In this document: positions 14,088 to 26,060 of the stretch, piece by piece
Numbering within the stretch: position 1 is the first letter of the stretch
How the letters are laid out: each line of letters begins with the position of its first letter
Origin: Desulfoplanes formicivorans
GTDB lineage: Bacteria > Desulfobacterota > Desulfovibrionia > Desulfovibrionales > Desulfomicrobiaceae
DNA: 64,000 nucleotides
Direction: 5' to 3'
NCBI RefSeq assembly: GCF_001748225.1
Contig: NZ_BDFE01000015.1
Location: 248,001-312,000, forward strand
Program-made: the position numbers and the translations under genes
The notes under the pieces: model-generated
Seen by the model: only the letters and a program-made list of their open reading frames with translations
Told to the model about the DNA's origin: nothing
Databases searched by the model: none

Positions 14088-15233
14088 ATGAACGGATTCG
14101 ACTATTATATCCCCACAAAAATTCTTTTTGGACCCGGAAAACTCAATCAGCTGGCCACGGAAAAACTGCCGGGCACCAAGGCCCTGATAGTCATTTCCAG
14201 CGGAACCTCCATGCACAAATTCGGGTACCTGGAACGCGTGCAGAACCTCCTTGCCAAGCAGGGCATTGAATCCGTGGTCTTCAACAAGATCCTGCCCAAT
14301 CCCATCAAGGAACACGTGAATGAAGGAGCTGCAATGGCCCGGGAAAACGGATGTGATTTCGTCATTGGCCTGGGAGGCGGTTCGTCCATTGATGCGGCCA
14401 AATCCATAGCCATCATGACCGTGAACCCCGGGGATTACTGGGACTACATTCATGGTGGCAGCGGCGGGGGCAAACCCGTTACCAACGGCGCCCTGCCCAT
14501 TGTGGCCATCACCACCACCGCAGGTACCGGCACCGAAGTCGATCCCTGGACCGTTATCACCAACAAGCACGAAAAGATCGGATTCGGCGATCCCTCCTGC
14601 ACCTTTCCAGTTCTGGCGGTTGTGGATCCGGAACTCATGGTGTCGGTTCCCCCCCGCCTGACCGCCTATCAGGGCTTTGACGCCTTTTTCCATGCGGCCG
14701 AAGGGGTCATGGCCAATGTGGCCAATCCCATAAGCGATCTGTATGCGCTGGAAAGCATCAGGCTGTTGACCACCTATCTTCCCCGCGCGGTCAAGGATGG
14801 CAGCGACATGGAAGCCCGGGGGTATGTGGCCCTGGCCAACACCCTGTCGGGCATGGTTGAATCCACTTCAAGCTGTATTTCCGAGCATTCCCTGGAACAT
14901 GCCTTGAGTGCCCTGCATCCCGAACTCCCCCATGGGGCCGGCCTGATCATGCTCTCGGAAGCCTATTTCCGCCACTTTGCCGACAAGATTCCCGAAAAGT
15001 TTCAGAAGATAGCCACGGCCATGGGCAGTGACAACGCCGTGGACGCTCTGATCAATCTTCAGGAGGCCTGCGGAGTACGCGATCTGAAGATGTCCGATTT
15101 CGGCATCACCGAGGATGAACTTCCTCAAGCAGCTCAAATTGCACGTACAACCATGGGCTTTCTCTACTCCCTGGACCCGGTTCCCCTGTCGGATGCAGAT
15201 GCCGAGGCCATCTTGCGGGCCTCCTTCAAATAA
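14088..15233 (+). CDS. Iron-dependent (group III) alcohol dehydrogenase
   Basis: The 381-residue protein has a typical Fe-ADH layout. An N-terminal Rossmann-like domain carries GGGSSIDAAK (NAD binding). The metal-binding C-terminal part has the DAFFHAAEG, HSLEHALSALHP and PHGAG segments that supply the Asp and three His ligands. It converges on the isethionate-lyase genes across a shared terminator. Isethionate cleavage yields acetaldehyde, so reduction of acetaldehyde to ethanol is a fitting role. A sulfoacetaldehyde reductase role, as for the Fe-ADH SarD of Bilophila, is the main alternative. Substrate is inferred only from context. Confidence 0.82.
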   Translation: MNGFDYYIPTKILFGPGKLNQLATEKLPGTKALIVISSGTSMHKFGYLERVQNLLAKQGIESVVFNKILPNPIKEHVNEGAAMARENGCDFVIGLGGGSSIDAAKSIAIMTVNPGDYWDYIHGGSGGGKPVTNGALPIVAITTTAGTGTEVDPWTVITNKHEKIGFGDPSCTFPVLAVVDPELMVSVPPRLTAYQGFDAFFHAAEGVMANVANPISDLYALESIRLLTTYLPRAVKDGSDMEARGYVALANTLSGMVESTSSCISEHSLEHALSALHPELPHGAGLIMLSEAYFRHFADKIPEKFQKIATAMGSDNAVDALINLQEACGVRDLKMSDFGITEDELPQAAQIARTTMGFLYSLDPVPLSDADAEAILRASFK

Positions 15234-15422: not shown

Positions 15423-16388
15423 TCAGCAGGCACTGGTGTCATCTCCCTTATGCCACATGCCGTTCTTGTAGCGTTCTTCCAACTCCTTGATGGCCACCAC
15501 AAGCTCGTCATCCAGCTTCACGATATCGGCATAGGGATAGACCTTGCCCAGGTTGGTGTACTTGGGCTGACCCATGCGGTGAAAGGGCAGGGCTTCATAC
15601 TCGCATTTTTCCCCTGGCAGACCATCCACAAAATCAATGATGGCCCGGATGTCTTCCACCGTGTCATTGAAGCCGGGAATAACCGGAGTGCGGACCCTGA
15701 TCTTCTTGTTGGGATAGGCTTCCTTGATGCGCTTGAGATTGTCCCGGATCTGCTTGCCGCTCCATCCGGTTTTCTCCTTGTGCTTGGCATCATCCAGGGA
15801 TTTGATGTCAAAAAGGATGTGATCCAGATAGGGCAGGCACGATTCAATCACGTCCCAGGGGGCCTGGCCGCAGGTTTCAACGGCCGTGTGGATCCGTCGA
15901 TGCTTGGCCTCCCGCAAAAGGGCAAGGGCAAACTCGGGCTGGGCAAAGGGTTCGCCTCCCGAAAGGGTCATGCCCCCGCCGGAACGGGCATAGAAACGCT
16001 CGTCTTCCTCAACCCGCTTGAGCACCGTATCCACGCTCTGCTCCTGGCCGTACACAATGATGGCGTTGCCAGGACAGACATCGGCCAAAAACAATTCGTT
16101 TTTGATCAGATCATGATCAATATCCACCTTGCCGTCTTCGGCCATGGTGATGGCACCGCTGGTGCAGCGTTCCAGACAGAACCGGCACTTGTCAGCTCCA
16201 ATGCAGTTGTTCCGGTTATAGGCCAGCTGGGGTTTGAAATCCTGGGATTCGGGGTTGGAACACCAGGCACAATGAAGAGGACATCCCTTCATGAAGACAA
16301 TAGTTCTGATGCCCGGTCCATCATGCACAGAATATTTCTGAACACTGAACACGGTCCCGGTCGTTTTTCTATCCACAATCGAGCTCAT
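15423..16388 (-). CDS. islB: IslB, radical SAM activase of isethionate sulfite-lyase
   Basis: The 321-residue protein is a glycyl-radical-enzyme activase. The radical-SAM motif GCPLHCAWCS supplies Cys36, Cys40 and Cys43. A ferredoxin-like insert holds Cys62, Cys68, Cys71, Cys75 and Cys105 for auxiliary clusters. The SAM-binding segment SGGGMTLSGGEP and the VETCG strand follow. It would use reduced cluster and SAM to place the radical on Gly801 of the neighbouring lyase. AGGGGA precedes the ATG. The gene is downstream of islA across a 74-base gap that contains a terminator-like hairpin. Confidence 0.92.
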   Translation of the reverse strand: MSSIVDRKTTGTVFSVQKYSVHDGPGIRTIVFMKGCPLHCAWCSNPESQDFKPQLAYNRNNCIGADKCRFCLERCTSGAITMAEDGKVDIDHDLIKNELFLADVCPGNAIIVYGQEQSVDTVLKRVEEDERFYARSGGGMTLSGGEPFAQPEFALALLREAKHRRIHTAVETCGQAPWDVIESCLPYLDHILFDIKSLDDAKHKEKTGWSGKQIRDNLKRIKEAYPNKKIRVRTPVIPGFNDTVEDIRAIIDFVDGLPGEKCEYEALPFHRMGQPKYTNLGKVYPYADIVKLDDELVVAIKELEERYKNGMWHKGDDTSAC

Positions 16389-16410
16389 TGTATTTCCCCT
16401 TATCCCTGAG

Positions 16411-16452
16411 AAAAAAGTGAAAGGGGGCAGGGTATGTGCCCCTGCCCCCTTT
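16411..16452 (-). terminator. Hairpin with T-run between islA and islB (partial terminator or attenuator)
   Basis: Perfect 13-bp arms (16420-16432 and 16440-16452, core GGGGGCAGGG) enclose a 7-base loop. In the leftward transcript the stem is followed within about four bases by six T residues. It begins 10 bases after the islA stop and ends shortly before the islB ribosome site. Since islB has no other visible promoter, incomplete termination would give less activase than lyase. Confidence 0.75.
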
Positions 16453-16462
16453 GAATGGTACC

Positions 16463-18943
16463 TTACATGACATCGTGGGCGGTACGGGCGATCAGATCAT
16501 CCTGGAGATCCTTGGACAGGTCGCAGAAGTAGGCGGAATAGCCGGCAATACGCACAATCAGGTTGCGGTACTGCTCGGGATTCTTCTGGGCCTTGATCAG
16601 GGTCTCGGCATTGATCACGTTGAACTGGATATGCCACAGGCGCAGATCACAGTAGGCTCGGATGAAGTCAACCATCTTCTGGGTACCTTCCTCGCCTTCC
16701 AGACACTTGGGAGTGAACTTGATGTTCACCAGACGGGCGGCCCGTTCACGATGGTTGAAGTTCTTGGTGGTGTAGTTGGACATGAGGATGGCGGTAGGAC
16801 CATTCTTGTCGGCACCATGGGAAGCCGAGGAACCATCGGACAGGGGGTACCAGGCTACACGGCCATTGGGAGTGGCAGAGACCACACGGCCAAAGGGAAC
16901 GTGCGAGGTAAAGGGCACATACCGGACATCCAGATGCACGCCCAGCTCATCCTGGTACTTCTCGGCAAATTCAACGCTCAGGGCATCAACATATTTACCG
17001 AGCTCATCGGCATAAGGATCATTGTTGCCATAGCAGGGAGCGGTCTTGAGCAGGGCCTGCACATCCTCATGACCCTTGAAGTCGGCCTTGCAGGCTTCAA
17101 TGACCTGCTTCATGGTCAGCTTCTTGTCCTCGAAAACCAGCTTCTTGATGGCCGCCAGGGAGTCGATGACGGTTCCGTATCCAATGACCTCAAAGTAACC
17201 AAGATCAATGCCTTCGGGCACATCGGGCTGGTGGATGTCCACACAATGCTTGCGGCAAAGGGCGTGCATGGCATCAGCCAGAGGTGCGGCAAAATGATTC
17301 TTGCGCAGGTCGATGACCCGGGCTTGCTGGGCAAAGGCGTGCTTGAGCAGATTTCTGTGCTGAATGGTGTAGGCGTTCAGGAATTCATCAAAGGTCTTGA
17401 ATTCGCAGGGATCGCCTGTGGCCGGAGCAAGCTGCTCGTCGCCGTATTTGAGCATCTTGCCGTTGTACATGACCATCTCGAGGGCCGCGGCAAAGTTGAT
17501 GTACGGGCAACCCGAGGTGTAGGTGTCGCGGTTGGGCATGCGGATCTCGGCACATCCGGAGATGGAGTAGTCGTAGATCTCCTCGAACTTGGCACCCTTG
17601 GCCAGATGCAGGGGAATGACTTCCTCGTCGTTGATCAGCTTGGGGAAACCGGAACCTTCCTTGATGGTCTCGGCGATCTCGGCCAGAAACCGCTGGGGCG
17701 CACGGGCGTGGATACGGGCAGCCAGGTCCGGATAATGGTGCGGAAATTCACGCTTGGAGCGCAGAAACAGGTAGGAAAGTTCGTTGGTGGCATCCAGGCC
17801 ATCCTTGGTCTGGCCGCCAATGGTCACGGCTTCCCAATGGGCATAGCCTTCATTGAAGTCACCGCCCTGGGGAGAAATGTACAGATCAATGAACTGGGCC
17901 ATGCCTACAAACATGCACTCGATCAGTTCCATGGCCTTGATCTCGTCCATGCGGCCTTCTTCCACGTCCTTTTTGTAGTAGGGGTAGAAGTACTGATCCA
18001 TGCGGCCGTTGGAAACAATGGTTCCAGTCTTCTGCTCCAGACGGGAGAACATCTGGGTGAACCACTGGGACTGGACAGCCTCGTGAAAGGTCTCGGCAGG
18101 ATGCTCGGGAACCTTGCGGCAGATTCTGGCCATTTCCAGAAGCTCGGCCTTGCGGGTTTCGTCCTTTTCCTCGGCAGCCTTTTTCTCGGCCAGATCAGCA
18201 TGGCGGTTGGCCCAGAGGATAATGGCGTCACAAACCGTGATGATGGCTTCGATAAAGGGCTTCTTCTCGGTGTTGTCCTTGGGAGAGAAGGGATCCAGGG
18301 CATCCAGCTTTTCCTGCATTTCTGCACGGATGCCACCGAAACCACGCTTCAGGACGACTTCGTAATCGTGTACCCACTGGAGGCAGGAACGAAAGGAAGA
18401 AGTTTCGTTGACAATGTAGCGGGAATGAAGACCGTCGGCATCGTCATAGGTCAGGGCATGGGTCTCGGGCCCAAAGGCCTTGTTCAGATCTTCATGATAT
18501 GTCTTGCCCTTCCAGTAAGGAGCGATCTCATTGATGATGATATCGGCATCTTCCTGGGTCAGGGTAAAGGGAGAATTTTCCCGGTTGGGCAATTCCTTGA
18601 CTGCCATGCCCAGAAAATCACCATCCAACTCGGGATACAGGATGCCGTAACGACCTTGGGCACCGGCGCGACCACAGAGCAGGTTATCGTCATCAATATA
18701 CACAGTGATGTTCTTGGCGATATTGTACAAGGCCTTGGCCCAACGCAGGGTCAGGTGCTGGCCTTCGGTTTCCTTCATTGATTGAGTGAAGTACAGAGCA
18801 CGTTCAACATCAATGGAAGGTGTCTGGTTTTCGATGGTTTCAAGAATTTTGAAAACGCGTTTGTGGGTTTCACGGTAGGGATTATCAAGACCTTTGATCT
18901 TGTTCTCCAGCATCTGTTCCTGGTGTGAAAGGCAGCATTCCAT
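16463..18943 (-). CDS. islA: IslA, isethionate sulfite-lyase (glycyl radical enzyme)
   Basis: IslA splits isethionate (2-hydroxyethanesulfonate) into acetaldehyde and sulfite by radical C-S cleavage, supplying sulfite for respiration. The 826-residue protein has the PFL-like fold with thiyl Cys464 in SGCAEIR and radical Gly801 in RIAGYSAY. From memory, the Bilophila enzyme uses Arg189, Gln193, Trp374, Cys468, Glu470, Arg678, Phe682 and Gly805. Here Arg185, Gln189, Trp370, Cys464, Glu466, Arg674, Phe678 and Gly801 all fall at a constant offset of four. AGGAGA precedes the ATG. A sigma-54-type promoter and activator sites lie upstream. Other glycyl radical sulfolyases (HpsG) are less likely given Gln189 and Trp370. 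Confidence 0.93.
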
Positions 18944-19016
18944 CCGTCTGTCTCCTATTGAATGTTGGTGTGTCAGTAAGCTGCAGTCCTTGTTGCGGAC
19001 CAGTTAGTCCCCATAA

Positions 19017-19033
19017 AGCATAGCTTGTGCCAA
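19017..19033 (-). promoter_or_regulatory. Sigma-54 promoter of islA
   Basis: Reading leftward, TTGGCAC-N6-TGCT has a perfect -24 element, ATGC as the -12 element, and exactly ten bases between GG and GC. Predicted transcription start is near 19006, about 63 bases before the islA ATG. Confidence 0.78.
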
Positions 19034-19122
19034 GAAAGACAAACAGGTACAACACGCTGAAATGAAACAACTTATTGTCTCTGCGTGCAAAAACAGCCTG
19101 CAAGGACGGCCACCTGCTGCCT

Positions 19123-19138
19123 GGTGCAGATACGCATC
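19123..19138. promoter_or_regulatory. Activator binding motif copy 1 (islA enhancer)
   Basis: GGTGC-AGATAC-GCATC matches the 16-bp motif GRTGC-N6-GCAYC shared across this locus. It lies about 120-130 bases upstream of the predicted islA start, a normal enhancer distance. Confidence 0.65.
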
Positions 19139-19188
19139 AAAACCGTGGGCAATCGATGCGTGGCAAAGCATACAAGGGGAAAACGAAA

Positions 19189-19236
19189 ATGGTGCCATTT
19201 TGCATCGGTCTGTTTGGCGATGCAAAATGGCACCAT
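19189..19236. promoter_or_regulatory. Inverted pair of activator motifs (islA enhancer)
   Basis: A perfect 19-bp inverted repeat (19189-19207 and 19218-19236, spacer 10) contains two complete copies of the 16-bp motif: GGTGC-CATTTT-GCATC at 19191-19206 and GATGC-AAAATG-GCACC at 19219-19234. Their centres are 28 bases apart and lie about 190-220 bases upstream of the predicted start. Confidence 0.75.
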
Positions 19237-19286
19237 ACTTCTTCCAGAGGCCATTCCCGTTCATGAGGTCTTGACCGCGCCCCCCC

Positions 19287-19324
19287 AAAAAAGTCCCCGG
19301 CAACACATGGCTGCCGGGGACTTT
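19287..19324 (-). terminator. Terminator of the dctP-dctQM unit
   Basis: Arms of 13 bp (19290-19302 and 19312-19324, core GTCCCCGGCA) are followed leftward by a run of six T. It lies just after the dctQM stop, separating transporter and lyase transcripts. Confidence 0.85.
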
Positions 19325-19343
19325 GGGTGTCAGGGAGGGAAGT

Positions 19344-21215
19344 CTACCCGTCAATCAGACACAGGGATATGGCGGGAATGTAGGTGATGGCCAAGAGGAC
19401 CAGAATCATCAGGGCCAGAATGGGCACAATTTGTTTGGAGATATCACCCAGTTTGACCCGGGCAACGCCAGCGGCCACGAACAGGTTCACGCCCACCGGC
19501 GGGGTGACAAACCCGATGGCCAGGTTGACGACCATGATGATACCGAAATGGATGGGGTCAACCCCGACCTTGAGCACGATGGGCAGCAGGATGGGCACCA
19601 GAATGACAATGGCGGCCAGGGCTTCCATAAAGGTACCGATGAACAGCAGCAGCACATTGATGAGCAGGAGAATGACGATCTTGCTGTTGGTCAGGCCGAG
19701 GATGAAATTGGCAATGGCCGTGGGTATCTGTTCAATGGTCATGACATTGCCGAAGACCTTGGCCATGGCCATGAGGATGATGACAATGGCCGAGGTGGAG
19801 CAGACATCCATGAAGGTCTTGACCAGATTCTGGCGATTGAGCCCCTTGTACACGAACAGCCCGACAATCAGACCGTAGAATGCAGCCACGGCTGCAGCCT
19901 CGGTGGGGGTCATCAACCCACCATAGATACCCCCGAGCACGATGACCGGGACCATAAGGGCCAGCTTGGCATTCCAGAAAGCCTTGAACACGGACTTTAT
20001 GGAACGATCCTTTTCCTCACCCATCCAGCCTTTCTTTTTGGAATAGACATAGCTGAAGCCCATGAGCACCAGGCCCGTAAGGAGGCCGGGCACGATACCG
20101 GCGATGAACAGGTTGCCGATGGAGGCCTGGGCGGCAACACCGTAGATGACAAAGGGGTTGCTGGGCGGAATCATGACCCCGATGGCACCGGCTGCGGCAA
20201 CAACGGCACAGGAAAAGAACTTGTCATAGCCGCGTTCGATCATGGCCGGAATGGTCAGGGAGCCAATGGCGGCCACGGTGGCTGGTCCGGAACCGGAAAT
20301 GGCGGCAAAAAACATGCAGGTGGCAATGGTTGCCAGGGCCATGCCTCCGGGTAGGGGGCCAAGAAGCTCGTCAGCCAGGTTCAAAAGACGGGTGGATAAC
20401 CCTCCGGCACCCATGAAGATACCTGCAGCAATGAAAAAGGGAATGGCCATGATGGGAAAACTGTCAATGGAGGTGAACGCGGTCTGGGCAATGTAGGCCA
20501 CAGGAAGCGTACCCGAAACAGTTACCGTCACCAGGGCGGCCAGCCCCAGGCTGATGCCGATGGGCACACCAATGGCAATGAACACCAAAAAGTAGCCGAA
20601 AAGCAGGGCAGGCGCACTGAACTTCACACCAATGAGCACAGGAGTGAAGAGCACGGCCGTGATGAGCACGGCAAGCAGGGAATCGTTCAGGCCGGTCTTT
20701 TGGTATTGCTGGTAGATATCCTGGCCCAGACGCAGGCACATGAGGGCAAACCCTATGGGCAAAATGGCATAGGGAATGGCATAGGAGATATTCAGGCCAG
20801 GAGCGATCTGCGGATAGTCGGTGAGGATTCTGAGCTTGTCGGCACCCAGAAAGGTCACGGCCACAGCCAGAACCAGAAAGCAGAGATCATTGACGATCCA
20901 GAAAATGCCCTGCCACCGCTCGGAAAGACGGTCAAAAAGGATGTCCACCCGGATGTTTTCCCGGTTCTTGATGGCCAGGGGAATGGCCAGATAGGAAATC
21001 CAAATGAAGATGAACCGGGCCAGTTCTTCGGACCAGGCCCCGGCACTGGCACTGCCGGTGAGTTTTGCAAGGATGTACCTGGACAGGGTCTGCCAGGTGA
21101 TGATGAAGATGATGGCCAGAAGTCCGACAAACAGAAAGGGCTTTTCAAGATTTTCGTCCAGCCAGCCCCAAAAGCCCCTGGTTTTGTGGGCGGGATCCAG
21201 TATATGTGCAAGCAT
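19344..21215 (-). CDS. Fused DctQ-DctM TRAP permease, probable isethionate transporter
   Basis: The 623-residue membrane protein joins a small DctQ-like part (~1-165, four helices, with WSEELARFIFIWISYL typical of DctQ) to a large DctM-like part (~185-620) with the hairpin-loop motifs of the family (ISGSGPATVAAIG, MIPPSNPFVIYG, GFVTPPVGVNLF). It drives Na+-coupled uptake with a periplasmic binding protein, encoded 27 bases upstream. AGGAAA precedes the ATG. Co-regulation with islA points to isethionate; known isethionate TRAP systems of desulfovibrios also have fused permeases. Taurine or another sulfonate cannot be excluded. Confidence 0.87.
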   Translation of the reverse strand: MLAHILDPAHKTRGFWGWLDENLEKPFLFVGLLAIIFIITWQTLSRYILAKLTGSASAGAWSEELARFIFIWISYLAIPLAIKNRENIRVDILFDRLSERWQGIFWIVNDLCFLVLAVAVTFLGADKLRILTDYPQIAPGLNISYAIPYAILPIGFALMCLRLGQDIYQQYQKTGLNDSLLAVLITAVLFTPVLIGVKFSAPALLFGYFLVFIAIGVPIGISLGLAALVTVTVSGTLPVAYIAQTAFTSIDSFPIMAIPFFIAAGIFMGAGGLSTRLLNLADELLGPLPGGMALATIATCMFFAAISGSGPATVAAIGSLTIPAMIERGYDKFFSCAVVAAAGAIGVMIPPSNPFVIYGVAAQASIGNLFIAGIVPGLLTGLVLMGFSYVYSKKKGWMGEEKDRSIKSVFKAFWNAKLALMVPVIVLGGIYGGLMTPTEAAAVAAFYGLIVGLFVYKGLNRQNLVKTFMDVCSTSAIVIILMAMAKVFGNVMTIEQIPTAIANFILGLTNSKIVILLLINVLLLFIGTFMEALAAIVILVPILLPIVLKVGVDPIHFGIIMVVNLAIGFVTPPVGVNLFVAAGVARVKLGDISKQIVPILALMILVLLAITYIPAISLCLIDG

Positions 21216-21242
21216 GTTGTTTCCTCGTATCTCACTAGAAAA

Positions 21243-22391
<1,149 letters not shown>

Positions 22392-22393
22392 TC

Positions 22394-22409
22394 AGCAAGA
22401 GACATACCA
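22394..22409 (-). promoter_or_regulatory. Sigma-54 promoter of dctP-dctQM
   Basis: Reading leftward, TGGTATG-N4-TTGCT has a perfect -12 element and TGG at -24, with exactly ten bases between GG and GC. Predicted start near 22383, about 43 bases before dctP. Confidence 0.72.
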
Positions 22410-22524
22410 CGGATACGTACAATCTCCAGGTTCCTGTAAAATGAAACTTTTTGCCGTTCTCTCCAGGCCCGTCCCTGTTCGGGAAGCAGAAGCCTTCAGG
22501 ACAGACAGAAACGGTGCCGTATTT

Positions 22525-22562
22525 GGTGCAAAAAAACACCAATACTTGTGCAAAAAATCACG
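22525..22562. promoter_or_regulatory. Two activator motifs (dctP enhancer, proximal pair)
   Basis: GGTGC-AAAAAA-ACACC at 22525-22540 and TGTGC-AAAAAA-TCACG at 22547-22562 resemble the locus motif GRTGC-N6-GCAYC; the second is the weakest copy. Centres are 22 bases apart, two helical turns, so both face the same side. Confidence 0.6.
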
Positions 22563-22603
22563 TTTCCCCTCAAAGCTTCCATATGCCGTACAAATAGCGT
22601 AGC

Positions 22604-22637
22604 GGTGCAAATCTGCATCCTGATGCAAAACAGCATC
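22604..22637. promoter_or_regulatory. Two activator motifs (dctP enhancer, distal pair)
   Basis: GGTGC-AAATCT-GCATC (22604-22619) and GATGC-AAAACA-GCATC (22622-22637) are full matches to the 16-bp motif, centres 18 bases apart. They lie about 220-255 bases upstream of the predicted dctP start. Confidence 0.7.
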
Positions 22638-22665
22638 TTGAGAAAATAATCACTTGGAATAACAT

Positions 22666-22699
22666 TAAAAATCCCCGAAAAACAGGGTTTCCGGGGATT
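22666..22699 (-). terminator. Terminator of the amidohydrolase gene
   Basis: Arms AATCCCCG (22670-22677) and CGGGGATT (22692-22699) form a hairpin followed leftward by a T-run. It starts about 22 bases after the amidohydrolase stop. Confidence 0.75.
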
Positions 22700-22721
22700 G
22701 TGCAGGCAACAGAATCAGCAA

Positions 22722-23558
22722 CTACATCCCGAGAATGCGGGCGGCATTGCCATACATGACCTTTTCGTACACCTCGTTTTCAAAGGGAAGATTGGCGTAT
22801 TTTTCAAGCTGTTCGCGGTAGTCGATAAAGGGGTGGGCCGAAGCAAAAAGCATCTTGTCGGCAATGAGCTCGTTGGCGGCCGTGGTGTAGGCTTCTGCAT
22901 GGGGCCAGAGTTCGTATTCGGACATCTCAATGAATACGTTTTTGTTACGCTGGGTAACGATAATGGCCTCATCCACCCAGGGATATCCACCATGGCTCAT
23001 GATGATCTTGAGCTCGGGGAAATCACGGGCCACAAAATCAATGTACCGCGGGGCAACGTGATCAATGACCGCACCCGGAACAAAACTGGCTGTTCCCGTG
23101 GTCATGATGACGGGGATCTCAAGCTCGCAGCACTTGGCGTAAAGGGGATAATACCGGGCATCATTGGGATAGATCTTGGCCAGATAGGGATCAATGGCCG
23201 CTCCCTGAATGCCGTCGTGTTGCGTCACGGCCTGCTCCAAATCACGGATGGCGGCCATGCCCTTGTGGGGGTCAATACCCCAGAAACCAATAAACTTTTC
23301 AGGGCACTTCTCACAGAATTCCAGCAGGCTGCCATTGCCATTGGCCATGGAGGCATATGTGCTTTCGCAGTCGCGTCCCGTGATAACGGCCTTGACGATA
23401 TGATTCTCGTCCATACCCTTTATGATGGCGTCAAAGGATTCGGGCTTGCATTTTTCAAAATGGATGGCCTCGCAAAGGTCCTTGAACATCTTGCTGTTGG
23501 CAATACCATTGACCACTTCCGGAGTATGGGGTCTGAATCTGAAATCAATGACGTTCAT
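22722..23558 (-). CDS. Amidohydrolase-2 family TIM-barrel protein of the isethionate locus
   Basis: The 278-residue protein belongs to the metal-dependent amidohydrolase-2/ACMSD-like family. It has the short N-terminal strand IDFRFRPHTPE (usual metal motif HxH here FRFRPH), a central VIMTTGTA strand, the IIMSHGGYPWVDE motif with conserved His, and a late ASAHPFIDYREQ segment. It lacks a signal peptide. AGGAGA lies seven bases before the ATG. It has its own sigma-54-type promoter and sits between transporter and exporter genes. Its substrate is unknown, and no isethionate pathway step known to me needs it. Confidence 0.75.
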   Translation of the reverse strand: MNVIDFRFRPHTPEVVNGIANSKMFKDLCEAIHFEKCKPESFDAIIKGMDENHIVKAVITGRDCESTYASMANGNGSLLEFCEKCPEKFIGFWGIDPHKGMAAIRDLEQAVTQHDGIQGAAIDPYLAKIYPNDARYYPLYAKCCELEIPVIMTTGTASFVPGAVIDHVAPRYIDFVARDFPELKIIMSHGGYPWVDEAIIVTQRNKNVFIEMSEYELWPHAEAYTTAANELIADKMLFASAHPFIDYREQLEKYANLPFENEVYEKVMYGNAARILGM

Positions 23559-23603
23559 GGAAATATCTCCTGTTAAGTTTTCACATTGAATGCTGCACCC
23601 GAT

Positions 23604-23620
23604 AGCAAGGTTGATACCAA
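23604..23620 (-). promoter_or_regulatory. Sigma-54 promoter of the amidohydrolase
   Basis: Reading leftward, TTGGTAT-N5-TTGCT has a perfect -12 element with exactly ten bases between GG and GC. It closely resembles the dctP promoter. Predicted start near 23593, about 35 bases before the ATG. Confidence 0.72.
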
Positions 23621-23690
23621 AAGCAGCACTCAATCCCGGCCTGTTTTTTGCTGACAAAAAGGTCGTTACGGGTCCATCCGGTTTCCATGC

Positions 23691-23706
23691 CGCGCCTGCC
23701 TGCACC
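23691..23706 (-). promoter_or_regulatory. Weak activator motif (amidohydrolase enhancer candidate)
   Basis: GGTGC-AGGCAG-GCGCG, read leftward, matches eight of ten specified positions of the locus motif and lies about 105 bases upstream of the predicted start. No stronger copy was found in 23621-23883. Confidence 0.35.
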
Positions 23707-23883
23707 TGTCCGGGACCATGAGCCCGGCATGTCCCTTCCCCTCAAAACAGTGGGATTCGACAGCCTGACCCAGGCAAGAAACCGACGTGCCGCAGTACGC
23801 CAGCCCTGCTGCTGAGAAGGGGCCAGCACACGGACACGCACGCCCGTACCGAAGCAACCCTTTTTTGCAGCGAGAAAATAGCC

Positions 23884-24621
23884 ATGGGATTATTTGTGTT
23901 CTGTGCCGCCTGGTTCATTGCCGGGTTTGTGAATCATGTTGTGGGCCTGGGAGCGGCCATGGTGGCCATGCCCATTGCGGTTCATTTCATGCCCCTGAAT
24001 CTGGCCGTTCCCAGCTCCACGCTGATCGTTCTGGTGCTGAACATGCAACTGGCCTGGACCTACCGGCAGAGCATTCGCTGGGAACATCTGCTCTATGTCC
24101 TGATGGGGGGAATGGTGGGAGCCATTGGGGGTATAGCCCTTGTTACGTCCTTTCATGACGAGAGTCTGGAAAGGTTGATGGGAATGTTTCTCATCGCCTA
24201 TGCGGTGTACTCCCTGTTTTTCGAGAAAAAGGAACCCCAAGGTGTTTACCCTGTGTGGGGCATACCAACGGGCATCTGCTCCACCTTTTTGGGCACGGCC
24301 TTTGGATTCAACGGGCCACCTCTGGCGATTTTTGCCACCCTTTCCGGCTGGAGCGCCGACGAGGCCAAGGGGTTTCTCGGGGCTTCATTCATCATCACCT
24401 GCAGTGCCATTATCACCGGGCAGACATTGGCCGGATTGCAAACCGGGCAGACCCTGCTCAACTTCGCCCTGGCCTGTCCGGCATCTCTTGTGGGAGGCCT
24501 CATGGGAATACGCTTTTCCAGACGGTTCTTCCGCACATCCAACCGCAAACTCCTGCTGGGCGTCCTCTTGTTTGCCGGCATTTCCCTGGTCATGCCTCTT
24601 TCCAAGGAGCTGTTTCAATGA
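23884..24621 (+). CDS. TauE/SafE-family membrane protein, probable sulfite exporter
   Basis: The 245-residue protein has about eight hydrophobic segments and the TauE/SafE repeat features: a GFVNHVVGLGAAMVAMPI opening and, after the midpoint, a second repeat FLGTAFGFNGPPLAIF. Members export sulfite or sulfoacetate or import small anions. Sulfite is the product of the neighbouring lyase, so relief of sulfite excess is a reasonable role. Its stop overlaps the start of the sigma-54 activator gene (ATGA), making the two a coupled pair. The ribosome site is weak. Confidence 0.82.
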   Translation: MGLFVFCAAWFIAGFVNHVVGLGAAMVAMPIAVHFMPLNLAVPSSTLIVLVLNMQLAWTYRQSIRWEHLLYVLMGGMVGAIGGIALVTSFHDESLERLMGMFLIAYAVYSLFFEKKEPQGVYPVWGIPTGICSTFLGTAFGFNGPPLAIFATLSGWSADEAKGFLGASFIITCSAIITGQTLAGLQTGQTLLNFALACPASLVGGLMGIRFSRRFFRTSNRKLLLGVLLFAGISLVMPLSKELFQ

Positions 24622-26060
24622 ATCTGAATCTCAACAGACATCGACACCACATCCTTCAAGAACGCAAAAGCCTCATTGCCACCTACCTGTGCAATGTGTT
24701 CGACACGCTCAATGACGGATTGTACATCACGGATAAAAACGGAGTGACCCTGGCGGTGAACTCCATGTACGAGAATCTCACGGGGCTGAAAGCCGAGGAT
24801 CTGCTGGGGAAAAATGTTGCCGAGCTGGTGGAAACAGGGATTTTCGACCTGGCCCTCAACCCCGAGGTCGTTCAGAAGAAAAAAACCGTCACAGCCGTGC
24901 AGGTCAACCGCAAGACACGCAAGGTGGTCCTGATTGCCCATCCCATATTCGACTATGACGATGATGTGGAAATGGTGGTCACCTATGTCCGGGATATTGC
25001 CCTCATCTCCCAGCTCAAGGACCAGGTAGCTGCCCAGCGCCAGCTCATTGATTCCTTTCAAATGTCCATCAAGCAGGACAACTCGTCCCTGTACCTGACC
25101 CCCAAAAGCGCCATCATGCGGCAATTGTTCAAACAGGTACGCAAGGTGGCCAAGACTGATGCAACGGTCCTGTATCTGGGCGAAACCGGCGTGGGCAAGG
25201 ATGTCATGGCCAAGGAACTGCACAGGAACAGCCCGCGCAAGGACAAATCATTCTTCAAGGTCGATTGCACCTGTATCCCGGAAAACCTCATCGAGTCGGA
25301 ACTCTTTGGCTATGCTCCGGGGGCCTTTTCCGGAGCCGATTCCAGGGGCAAACTGGGACTCTTTGAAATGGCGGACAAGGGAACCCTGTTTCTCGACGAA
25401 ATCGGCGAGCTGCCTCTGGCCATGCAGGGCAAGCTGCTTCGGGTCCTGCAGGACGGCGACATCCAGCGGATAGGCGCCACCACCACCAAAAAAATCAATG
25501 TCCGGATCATTGCAGCCACCAATCGTAACCTGGCCGAAGAAGTGAAAAAGGGAAACTTCAGAAGCGATCTCTTTTACCGGCTGCGCGTGGCGGTCATCAA
25601 CATCCCCCCTTTGCGGGAACGGGGAGAGGATCTTTTCGAGCTCATCTATTTTTTCATCAAACAGTTCAACAGGCGCTACAAACGGCAGGTCACCCTTTCC
25701 TCCATGGCCGAAGAAACCATGCTCAACTACGCCTGGCCCGGCAATCTGCGTGAACTGGAAAATCTGATCCACAGCCTGGTTGTCACCTGTGACAACAACA
25801 AGATTCAGGTGGAAGATCTCCCGGCGGCCATGGTGGCCAAAAGCACGGTGGACAATACATGCCGAGCCCTCAACATGGGACTGGAGGATTTCAGCGGCAA
25901 GAGTTTCAAGGACATTGTCACGGAATTCGAAACCCAGATTCTCAAAAACGCCGTTTCGGTCTACGGATCCATTCCCAAGGCAGCCAAGGCCCTGGACCTG
26001 AACCGGAGCACGGTGTTTCGCAAACTGCAAAAGGCCGGATTCACGGAAGTTGACACCTAA
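24618..26060 (+). CDS. Sigma-54-dependent activator (PAS-AAA-Fis), probable regulator of the isethionate locus
   Basis: The 480-residue protein has an N-terminal PAS domain (~22-130), an AAA+ ATPase domain with Walker A GETGVGKD at 188-195, a sigma-54 contact loop GAFSGA at 235-240 and Walker B LFLDE, and a Fis-type helix-turn-helix at the end (SIPKAAKALDLNRSTVFRKLQKAG). The contact loop has Ser for the usual Thr. No receiver domain is present, so a ligand or redox cue sensed by PAS probably controls it. It is coupled to the exporter gene and is the only sigma-54 activator of the locus, making it the likely reader of the 16-bp motifs. Confidence 0.9.
   Translation: MNLNLNRHRHHILQERKSLIATYLCNVFDTLNDGLYITDKNGVTLAVNSMYENLTGLKAEDLLGKNVAELVETGIFDLALNPEVVQKKKTVTAVQVNRKTRKVVLIAHPIFDYDDDVEMVVTYVRDIALISQLKDQVAAQRQLIDSFQMSIKQDNSSLYLTPKSAIMRQLFKQVRKVAKTDATVLYLGETGVGKDVMAKELHRNSPRKDKSFFKVDCTCIPENLIESELFGYAPGAFSGADSRGKLGLFEMADKGTLFLDEIGELPLAMQGKLLRVLQDGDIQRIGATTTKKINVRIIAATNRNLAEEVKKGNFRSDLFYRLRVAVINIPPLRERGEDLFELIYFFIKQFNRRYKRQVTLSSMAEETMLNYAWPGNLRELENLIHSLVVTCDNNKIQVEDLPAAMVAKSTVDNTCRALNMGLEDFSGKSFKDIVTEFETQILKNAVSVYGSIPKAAKALDLNRSTVFRKLQKAGFTEVDT

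Follow-up and report, generated by a model that had tools for sequence, protein, structure and literature searches.

The isethionate locus and its control elements

Desulfoplanes formicivorans carries an isethionate (isl) locus on contig NZ_BDFE01000015.1 of assembly GCF_001748225.1. The stretch analyzed here, referred to as the window, is 64,000 nucleotides long and covers positions 248,001 to 312,000 of the forward strand of that contig. The locus is very probably an IslR-type sigma-54 regulon, with the adjacent activator as the probable reader of its enhancer sites. The principal genes are listed below.

15423..16388, minus strand: islB, the radical-SAM activase of IslA (Pfam Radical_SAM and Fer4_12; NCBIfam glycyl-radical-enzyme activating protein)
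16463..18943, minus strand: islA, isethionate sulfite-lyase, a glycyl radical enzyme of 826 amino acids (identity, tree, active-site residues)
19344..21215, minus strand: dctQM, a fused TRAP permease (Pfam DctQ, DctM)
21243..22340, minus strand: dctP, the TRAP solute-binding protein (Pfam DctP)
22722..23558, minus strand: amidohydrolase-family gene of the DVU2820 type, with its own sigma-54 promoter (Pfam Amidohydro_2)
24618..26060, plus strand: islR-type enhancer-binding protein, the probable reader of the upstream sites (Pfam, GAFSGA motif, activator tree)

The glycyl radical enzyme groups by sequence with the proven isethionate lyases. Its identity is 71% to the structure of D. vulgaris IslA (5YMR), 69% to that of Bilophila IslA (7KQ3), and 61% to that of HpsG (6LON), and the enzyme tree places it on the IslA side of an IslA/HpsG split with 100% support. 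It retains R189, Q193, W374, C468, E470, R678, V680, F682, and G805 (Bilophila numbering), residues found relevant to activity by mutagenesis (PMC8473560). Position 682 is Ile in the HpsG clade; the window enzyme lies outside this clade and has Phe there.

The control elements are -24/-12 (sigma-54) promoters, all exact matches to TGGYAY-N5-WTGCW, and upstream activating sequences (UAS), which have no assigned strand. Matches are to GRTGC-N6-GCAYC, and the ranks of the exact copies are those in the window under a matrix trained without the window's enzyme clade.

19017..19032, minus strand: promoter of islAB, TGGCACAAGCTATGCT
19123..19138: UAS 3 of islA, GGTGCAGATACGCATC; exact match, rank 4
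19191..19206: UAS 2 of islA, GGTGCCATTTTGCATC; exact match, rank 3
19219..19234: UAS 1 of islA, GATGCAAAATGGCACC; exact match, rank 2
22394..22409, minus strand: promoter of dctP-dctQM, TGGTATGTCTCTTGCT
22525..22540: weak UAS of dctP, GGTGCAAAAAAACACC; one mismatch, rank 9-10 in the window, position and spacing conserved in relatives
22547..22562: degenerate UAS of dctP, TGTGCAAAAAATCACG; three mismatches, background score, conserved core
22604..22619: UAS of dctP, GGTGCAAATCTGCATC; exact match, rank 1
22622..22637: UAS of dctP, GATGCAAAACAGCATC; exact match, rank 5, 18 bp from its neighbor, a spacing also seen in L120-L126
23604..23619, minus strand: promoter of the amidohydrolase gene, TGGTATCAACCTTGCT

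An earlier reading, made from the letters of the window and referred to here as the sequence-only reading, had placed -24/-12 elements before islA, dctP-dctQM, and the amidohydrolase gene. The elements are indeed present: within the 64 kb, TGGYAY-N5-WTGCW is matched exactly at three places and no others, 19017, 22394, and 23604, all on the minus strand and before these genes. The pattern was written after the three sites had been seen and so describes them but does not test them. The distance of 34-64 bases to the ATG given by that reading was slightly off, and the measured values from element end to ATG are 73 (islA), 53 (dctP), and 45 (amidohydrolase). The islAB promoter is kept in L001, L117, and L118 as TTGGCACA...TATGCTT, and the dctP promoter in L117 and L118 as TGGAATGCTCCTTGCT (L001-L183 are fetched loci; G labels are genomes, with G000 being the window's own genome). 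The amidohydrolase element is found at the equivalent place in relatives, and -24/-12 elements are in place in most activator-bearing loci.

Seven copies of the enhancer motif, two of them weaker, had been counted some 115-255 bases upstream of the predicted starts. This description was borne out, as five of the seven copies are exact, the two weaker ones (22525 with one mismatch and 22547 with three) stand at conserved positions, and the site centers lie about 125-246 bp 5' of the predicted starts. The islAB array has three sites 125-220 bp before the start, and the dctP-dctQM array has two strong and two weak sites 150-250 bp before it. The 22547 copy is background-like (rank 529 with a matrix similar to the clade-held-out one), and its core, GTGA-N6-GCACA, is kept in the two nearest relatives, L117 and L118. 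The window holds six exact matches to GRTGC-N6-GCAYC against 0.71 expected from dinucleotide shuffles, and none of 100 shuffles reaches six. Matrix scans cover the window and the fetched loci, and genome-wide counts are pattern-based. Genome-wide, 18 exact matches occur in 3.0 Mb, five of them inside the 3.5-kb locus stretch (Poisson P about 7e-12).

Eight other genome-wide matches (L176-L183) were considered as further regulon members. They are single sites scoring 10-15, and none was adopted. The two that were looked up lie beside housekeeping genes, one next to FAD synthetase/pseudouridine synthase and the other next to ribosomal protein S2. The lone site at G000:C15:326882-326897 (L178, score 14.7), which separates the divergent genes for FAD synthetase/riboflavin kinase and a pseudouridine synthase, is probably a chance match.

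Conservation of the operator

The survey set is composed of eighty named loci and forty further genome stretches. An unbiased count of dyads in islA upstream regions other than that of the window put GATGC-N6-GCATC, TGCA-N4-TGCA, and GCAA-N2-TTGC above all shuffles. Palindromic expectation maximization (EM) from random starts, for which the window and its near relatives had been set aside, arrived at tGtTGCAaattTGCAaCa; about 199 sites of this form are spread over 91 regions. When the window's whole enzyme clade was left out, motif discovery on the islA and dctP upstream regions returned the palindrome tGtTGCAAatTTGCAaCa as the best information-rich solution. The clade-held-out EM used more starts and a 13-bit information threshold, which was added after a first run had settled on a low-information solution of C/G runs; shuffled input gave no motif above 13 bits. 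With this matrix, a site scoring at least 12 is found in 25 of the 28 held-out islA/dctP regions, compared to 0.5 expected from shuffles. In the window, the five exact sites take ranks 1-5 (scores 13.7-18.5), the next score is 11.3, and 22525 is tenth. The 16-bp GRTGC-N6-GCAYC motif of the sequence-only reading is therefore real but incomplete, because the full operator palindrome extends further and its center bases are conserved. At the second position of the half-site, A, G, and T all occur, with T the most common across the family and A or G found in this genome. The relatives closest to the D. vulgaris IslA have GTTGC-N6-GCAAC dyads.

The motif was sought upstream of islA and dctP orthologues that have the activator, as the sequence-only reading had advised, and this search did not contradict it: of the 66 islA loci in which a relative of the activator is in view, 60 have sites. 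Of the 45 islA loci in which none is in view, 16 have sites as well; several of these loci are cut by contig ends. Outside the Thermodesulfobacteriota, a strong activator match and sites occur together in L050 (Nitrospirota) and L051 (Bacillota). Among the surveyed islA loci, those of Lachnospiraceae, Clostridium, Sporomusa, Pectinatus, and Planctomycetaceae had neither activator nor sites. The DNA control region is real, widely conserved, and crosses phyla.

The array layout is conserved as well. In the dctP arrays of relatives, two sites are 18 bp apart and a third is closer to the promoter by about 80 bp. In their islA arrays, the paired sites are separated by 18 or 28 bp, and the third is closer to the promoter by 66-68 bp. 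In L122, the spacing of four sites is 18/55/22 bp, compared to 18/57/22 in the window, where the weak sites 22525 and 22547 occupy these conserved places.

In the Mailhella-like genomes (L037, L047, L049), the outer base of the palindrome is changed, giving TATGCAA-NN-TTGCATA. In L038, L049, L055, and L062, which are related to the Mailhella-like loci, the activator belongs to a separate clade, a natural case of operator drift.

The activator, its paralogue, and the published regulon

The activator at 24618-26060 is composed of a PAS domain (27-127), an AAA+ domain with the GAFSGA motif (163-327), and an HTH domain (428-472) by Pfam. In the activator tree, its clade held against two outgroup activators; the deep branches are weak, and DVU2827 itself is not in the tree. 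Ordinary sigma-54 enhancer control is strongly supported as the mechanism. The one-component activator (PAS, AAA+, and Fis-like HTH) probably senses isethionate or a signal derived from it. Its dimers would bind the arrays of TGDTGCA-N4-TGCAHCA (local form GRTGC-N6-GCAYC). DNA looping would then carry the AAA+ domain to the sigma-54 polymerase at the -24/-12 elements, just upstream of the transcription starts predicted at 19006 for islAB and 22383 for dctP-dctQM. The resulting promoter opening would permit transcription of the uptake (TRAP) and desulfonation (IslA/IslB) genes. Control of the amidohydrolase gene, whose start is predicted near 23593, probably comes from the dctP array at a distance of about 1 kb, similar to the control proposed for DVU2820 by Kazakov et al. 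2015 (PMC4641369).

The same genome encodes a second activator of the same subfamily (C9:180686-182053, 45% identical) at its hpsG locus, where an HpsG-type enzyme with 73% identity to 6LON has this activator as its own (C9:183268-185718; L116). The hpsG-linked paralogues, also found at L152-L155, L060, and L079, are 45-50% identical to the islA-linked activator and form a separate clade with support 92. The hpsG loci (L116, L152-L155, L060, L079, L156-L175) carry a sister palindrome, TgTTGCA-N4-TGCAAcA, and the long hpsG stretches also show the activator paralogue and -24/-12 promoters. The de novo search at these loci was dominated by A/T runs, and the sister motif, as the best information-rich solution, is less certain. 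Because the hpsG loci, several of them with paralogous activators, carry this sister motif, the palindrome appears tied to the activator subfamily. The paralogue resembles the window activator in standing beside a sulfonate-cleaving glycyl radical enzyme with a related palindrome and -24/-12 promoters, but it differs in its clade, in its motif core (TGTTGCA), and in serving an HpsG-type enzyme.

The best site at the genome's own hpsG locus is GTTGC-N6-GCTAC, which scores 11.4 compared to 15-20 for the islA-locus sites. In this genome, the second base of the half-site is A or G at the islA sites and T at the best hpsG site, a difference that would allow separate control. As a tentative extension, for which we see somewhat less than an even chance, IslR and its hpsG-linked sister would be paralogous activators that read variants of TGDTGCA-N4-TGCAHCA, with lineage-specific drift of the half-site keeping the respiration of isethionate and that of 2,3-dihydroxypropane-1-sulfonate (DHPS) under separate control in one genome. 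To our knowledge, no letter-level operator code for C2/C3-sulfonate respiration has been published. The sequence-only reading had named the adjacent sigma-54 activator as the obvious reader of the motif; it most probably is, judging from locality, co-occurrence, and the separate clade of the hpsG paralogues at loci with the sister motif.

Parts of this system have been described. In Kazakov et al. 2015 (PMC4641369), DVU2827 is a one-component GAFSGA activator predicted as a regulator in D. vulgaris, and its predicted targets are DVU2820 (amidohydrolase), DVU2822-2823 (TRAP), DVU2824 (glycyl radical enzyme), and DVU2825 (activase). UAS and sigma-54 promoters were predicted for this regulon in five Desulfovibrionales, with the enzyme named pyruvate formate-lyase, and the regulon was deposited in RegPrecise by the authors' account. 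The authors also describe a UAS shared with the amidohydrolase gene and, in D. piger, an amidohydrolase gene beside an MFS gene. L024 (D. piger ATCC 29098) has this arrangement, together with three matrix sites scoring 18-20. The DVU2827 regulon and the window share a one-component activator that has the GAFSGA loop and sensor, AAA+, and HTH domains; a target set of glycyl radical enzyme, activase, TRAP transporter, and amidohydrolase; and -24/-12 promoters before both units. The two differ in that the DVU2827 regulon is filed under pyruvate metabolism, whereas the window unit is assigned to isethionate. The letters of the DVU2827 motif are presented only in a figure, and the sections consulted describe no binding assay for DVU2827, whereas the operator is given here base by base and extended beyond the Desulfovibrionales.

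Work done by Peck et al. 2019 (PMC6386719) revealed that an islR knockout of Desulfovibrio alaskensis G20 is unable to grow on isethionate but still grows on sulfite. In that strain, islR is the predicted regulator gene of the isl cluster; the main text of the article gives no description of its operator or promoter. Xing et al. 2019 (PMC6453916) identified the D. vulgaris Hildenborough enzyme Q727N1 as an isethionate lyase. We found no open-licence paper that joins the DVU2827 regulon, isethionate lyase, and the islR knockout, and the letters of the DVU2827 motif were not found in text form in the open-licence papers searched. Q727N1 is presumably DVU2824. The remark of the sequence-only reading that it knew of no published operator of this form does not hold, since the DVU2827 sites were predicted by Kazakov et al. 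2015 (PMC4641369) and islR was shown to be needed by Peck et al. 2019 (PMC6386719).

The regulator and regulon are thus already published in parts, under a name that hides the isethionate link. The additions here are the letter-level operator, its spread, the layout of the multi-site arrays, and the paralogous activator at hpsG loci with its sister motif. The operator is a precise one for the genes by which isethionate, which arises from the breakdown of taurine, is converted to sulfite and on to H2S, and it is relevant to isethionate (C2-sulfonate) respiration in gut and environmental sulfate reducers. It corrects the pyruvate formate-lyase label, which predates knowledge of the enzyme's function, can guide genome searches for genes of sulfonate respiration, and opens the inducer and the binding of the activator to direct tests.

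Alternative readings and neighboring features

Several observations weigh against an IslR-type regulon read by the adjacent activator. Six activator-bearing islA loci have no site scoring 12 or more, and the 14-kb contig of L041 (Bacillota) shows sites but no activator. The co-occurrence of activator and sites is partly shared ancestry. No UAS lies within 500 bp upstream of the amidohydrolase gene. The motif is not specific to islA, and because hpsG loci carry its sister, related activators could cross-bind. In PMC4641369, the DVU2827 motif letters appear only in a figure, and Peck's islR is a putative orthologue of the window activator.

The palindrome could instead be the operator of a different regulator, either the hpsG-linked paralogue or a repressor, with the adjacent activator reading something else. 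The second activator of the same subfamily in this genome and the closely related motif at hpsG loci favor this view, but the low score of the genome's own hpsG site and the fact that site arrays follow the islA-linked activator in several phyla make it improbable. A repressor would also have no need for two to four copies 100-250 bp 5' of -24/-12 promoters. It is about equally improbable that the regulon serves another sulfonate through an HpsG-type DHPS lyase/dehydratase. Residue 192 is Leu, as in HpsG, the identity to proven IslA enzymes is only 69-71%, and the NCBIfam model NF048011 (sulfopropanediol dehydratase) scores the protein 1528 against a cut-off of 1000. The tree, the overall identity, and Phe682 nevertheless place the enzyme with IslA, and the genome has its separate HpsG-type enzyme.

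Less probable still is that the inverted pair 19191/19219 forms an RNA hairpin (terminator or attenuator) and not two protein sites. The two copies are exact reverse complements in the window and would form a 19-bp stem of -30.6 kcal/mol. Two protein sites are the better reading because the stem is much less stable (-9 to -14 kcal/mol) in L117, L118, and L001, while the palindromic sites persist in relatives. No T-run follows the stem, the dctP array has no such stem, and a separate terminator-like feature, a GC-rich inverted repeat followed by TTTTTT on the minus strand, lies nearby:

19294..19327, minus strand: probable intrinsic terminator of dctQM, separating this gene from the islA UAS array (sequence inspection)

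Chance or compositional matches can be dismissed with near certainty. With one mismatch allowed, 23 matches stand against 12 expected, but the shuffles, the clustering, and the clade-held-out matrix that predicts the sites refute a chance origin.

Automatic annotation through NF048011 would misname IslA enzymes as DHPS dehydratase. The matches from the NCBIfam library include no model for IslA, which makes the name given by NF048011 look like a trap.

The activator gene is preceded by one further gene:

23884..24621, plus strand: TauE/SafE-type sulfite exporter, 5' of the activator gene and overlapping its start (Pfam TauE)

A tauE-type exporter gene adjoins the activator gene in L117-L127. 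A weaker sigma-54-like element, CGGCCTGTTTTTTGCT, at 23637-23652 on the plus strand is directed at the tauE-activator operon, and in L117 the matching element pairs with the amidohydrolase promoter as an inverted repeat. Divergent or autoregulated control of this operon is possible. Amidohydrolase homologues recur at islA loci, mostly with 52-63% identity. An iron-containing alcohol dehydrogenase gene at 14088-15233 (plus strand), convergent with islB, is a candidate acetaldehyde reducer; its upstream region has neither a UAS nor a good -24/-12 element.

The isl island (window 15423-26060; L117, L118, L146, L147, L150, L151) is shared with G184 and G216, which belong to another family and have 91% IslA identity with identical gene order. 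In genomes of the window's own family, the IslA identity is about 69% or less. This closer match to another family suggests horizontal transfer of the island.

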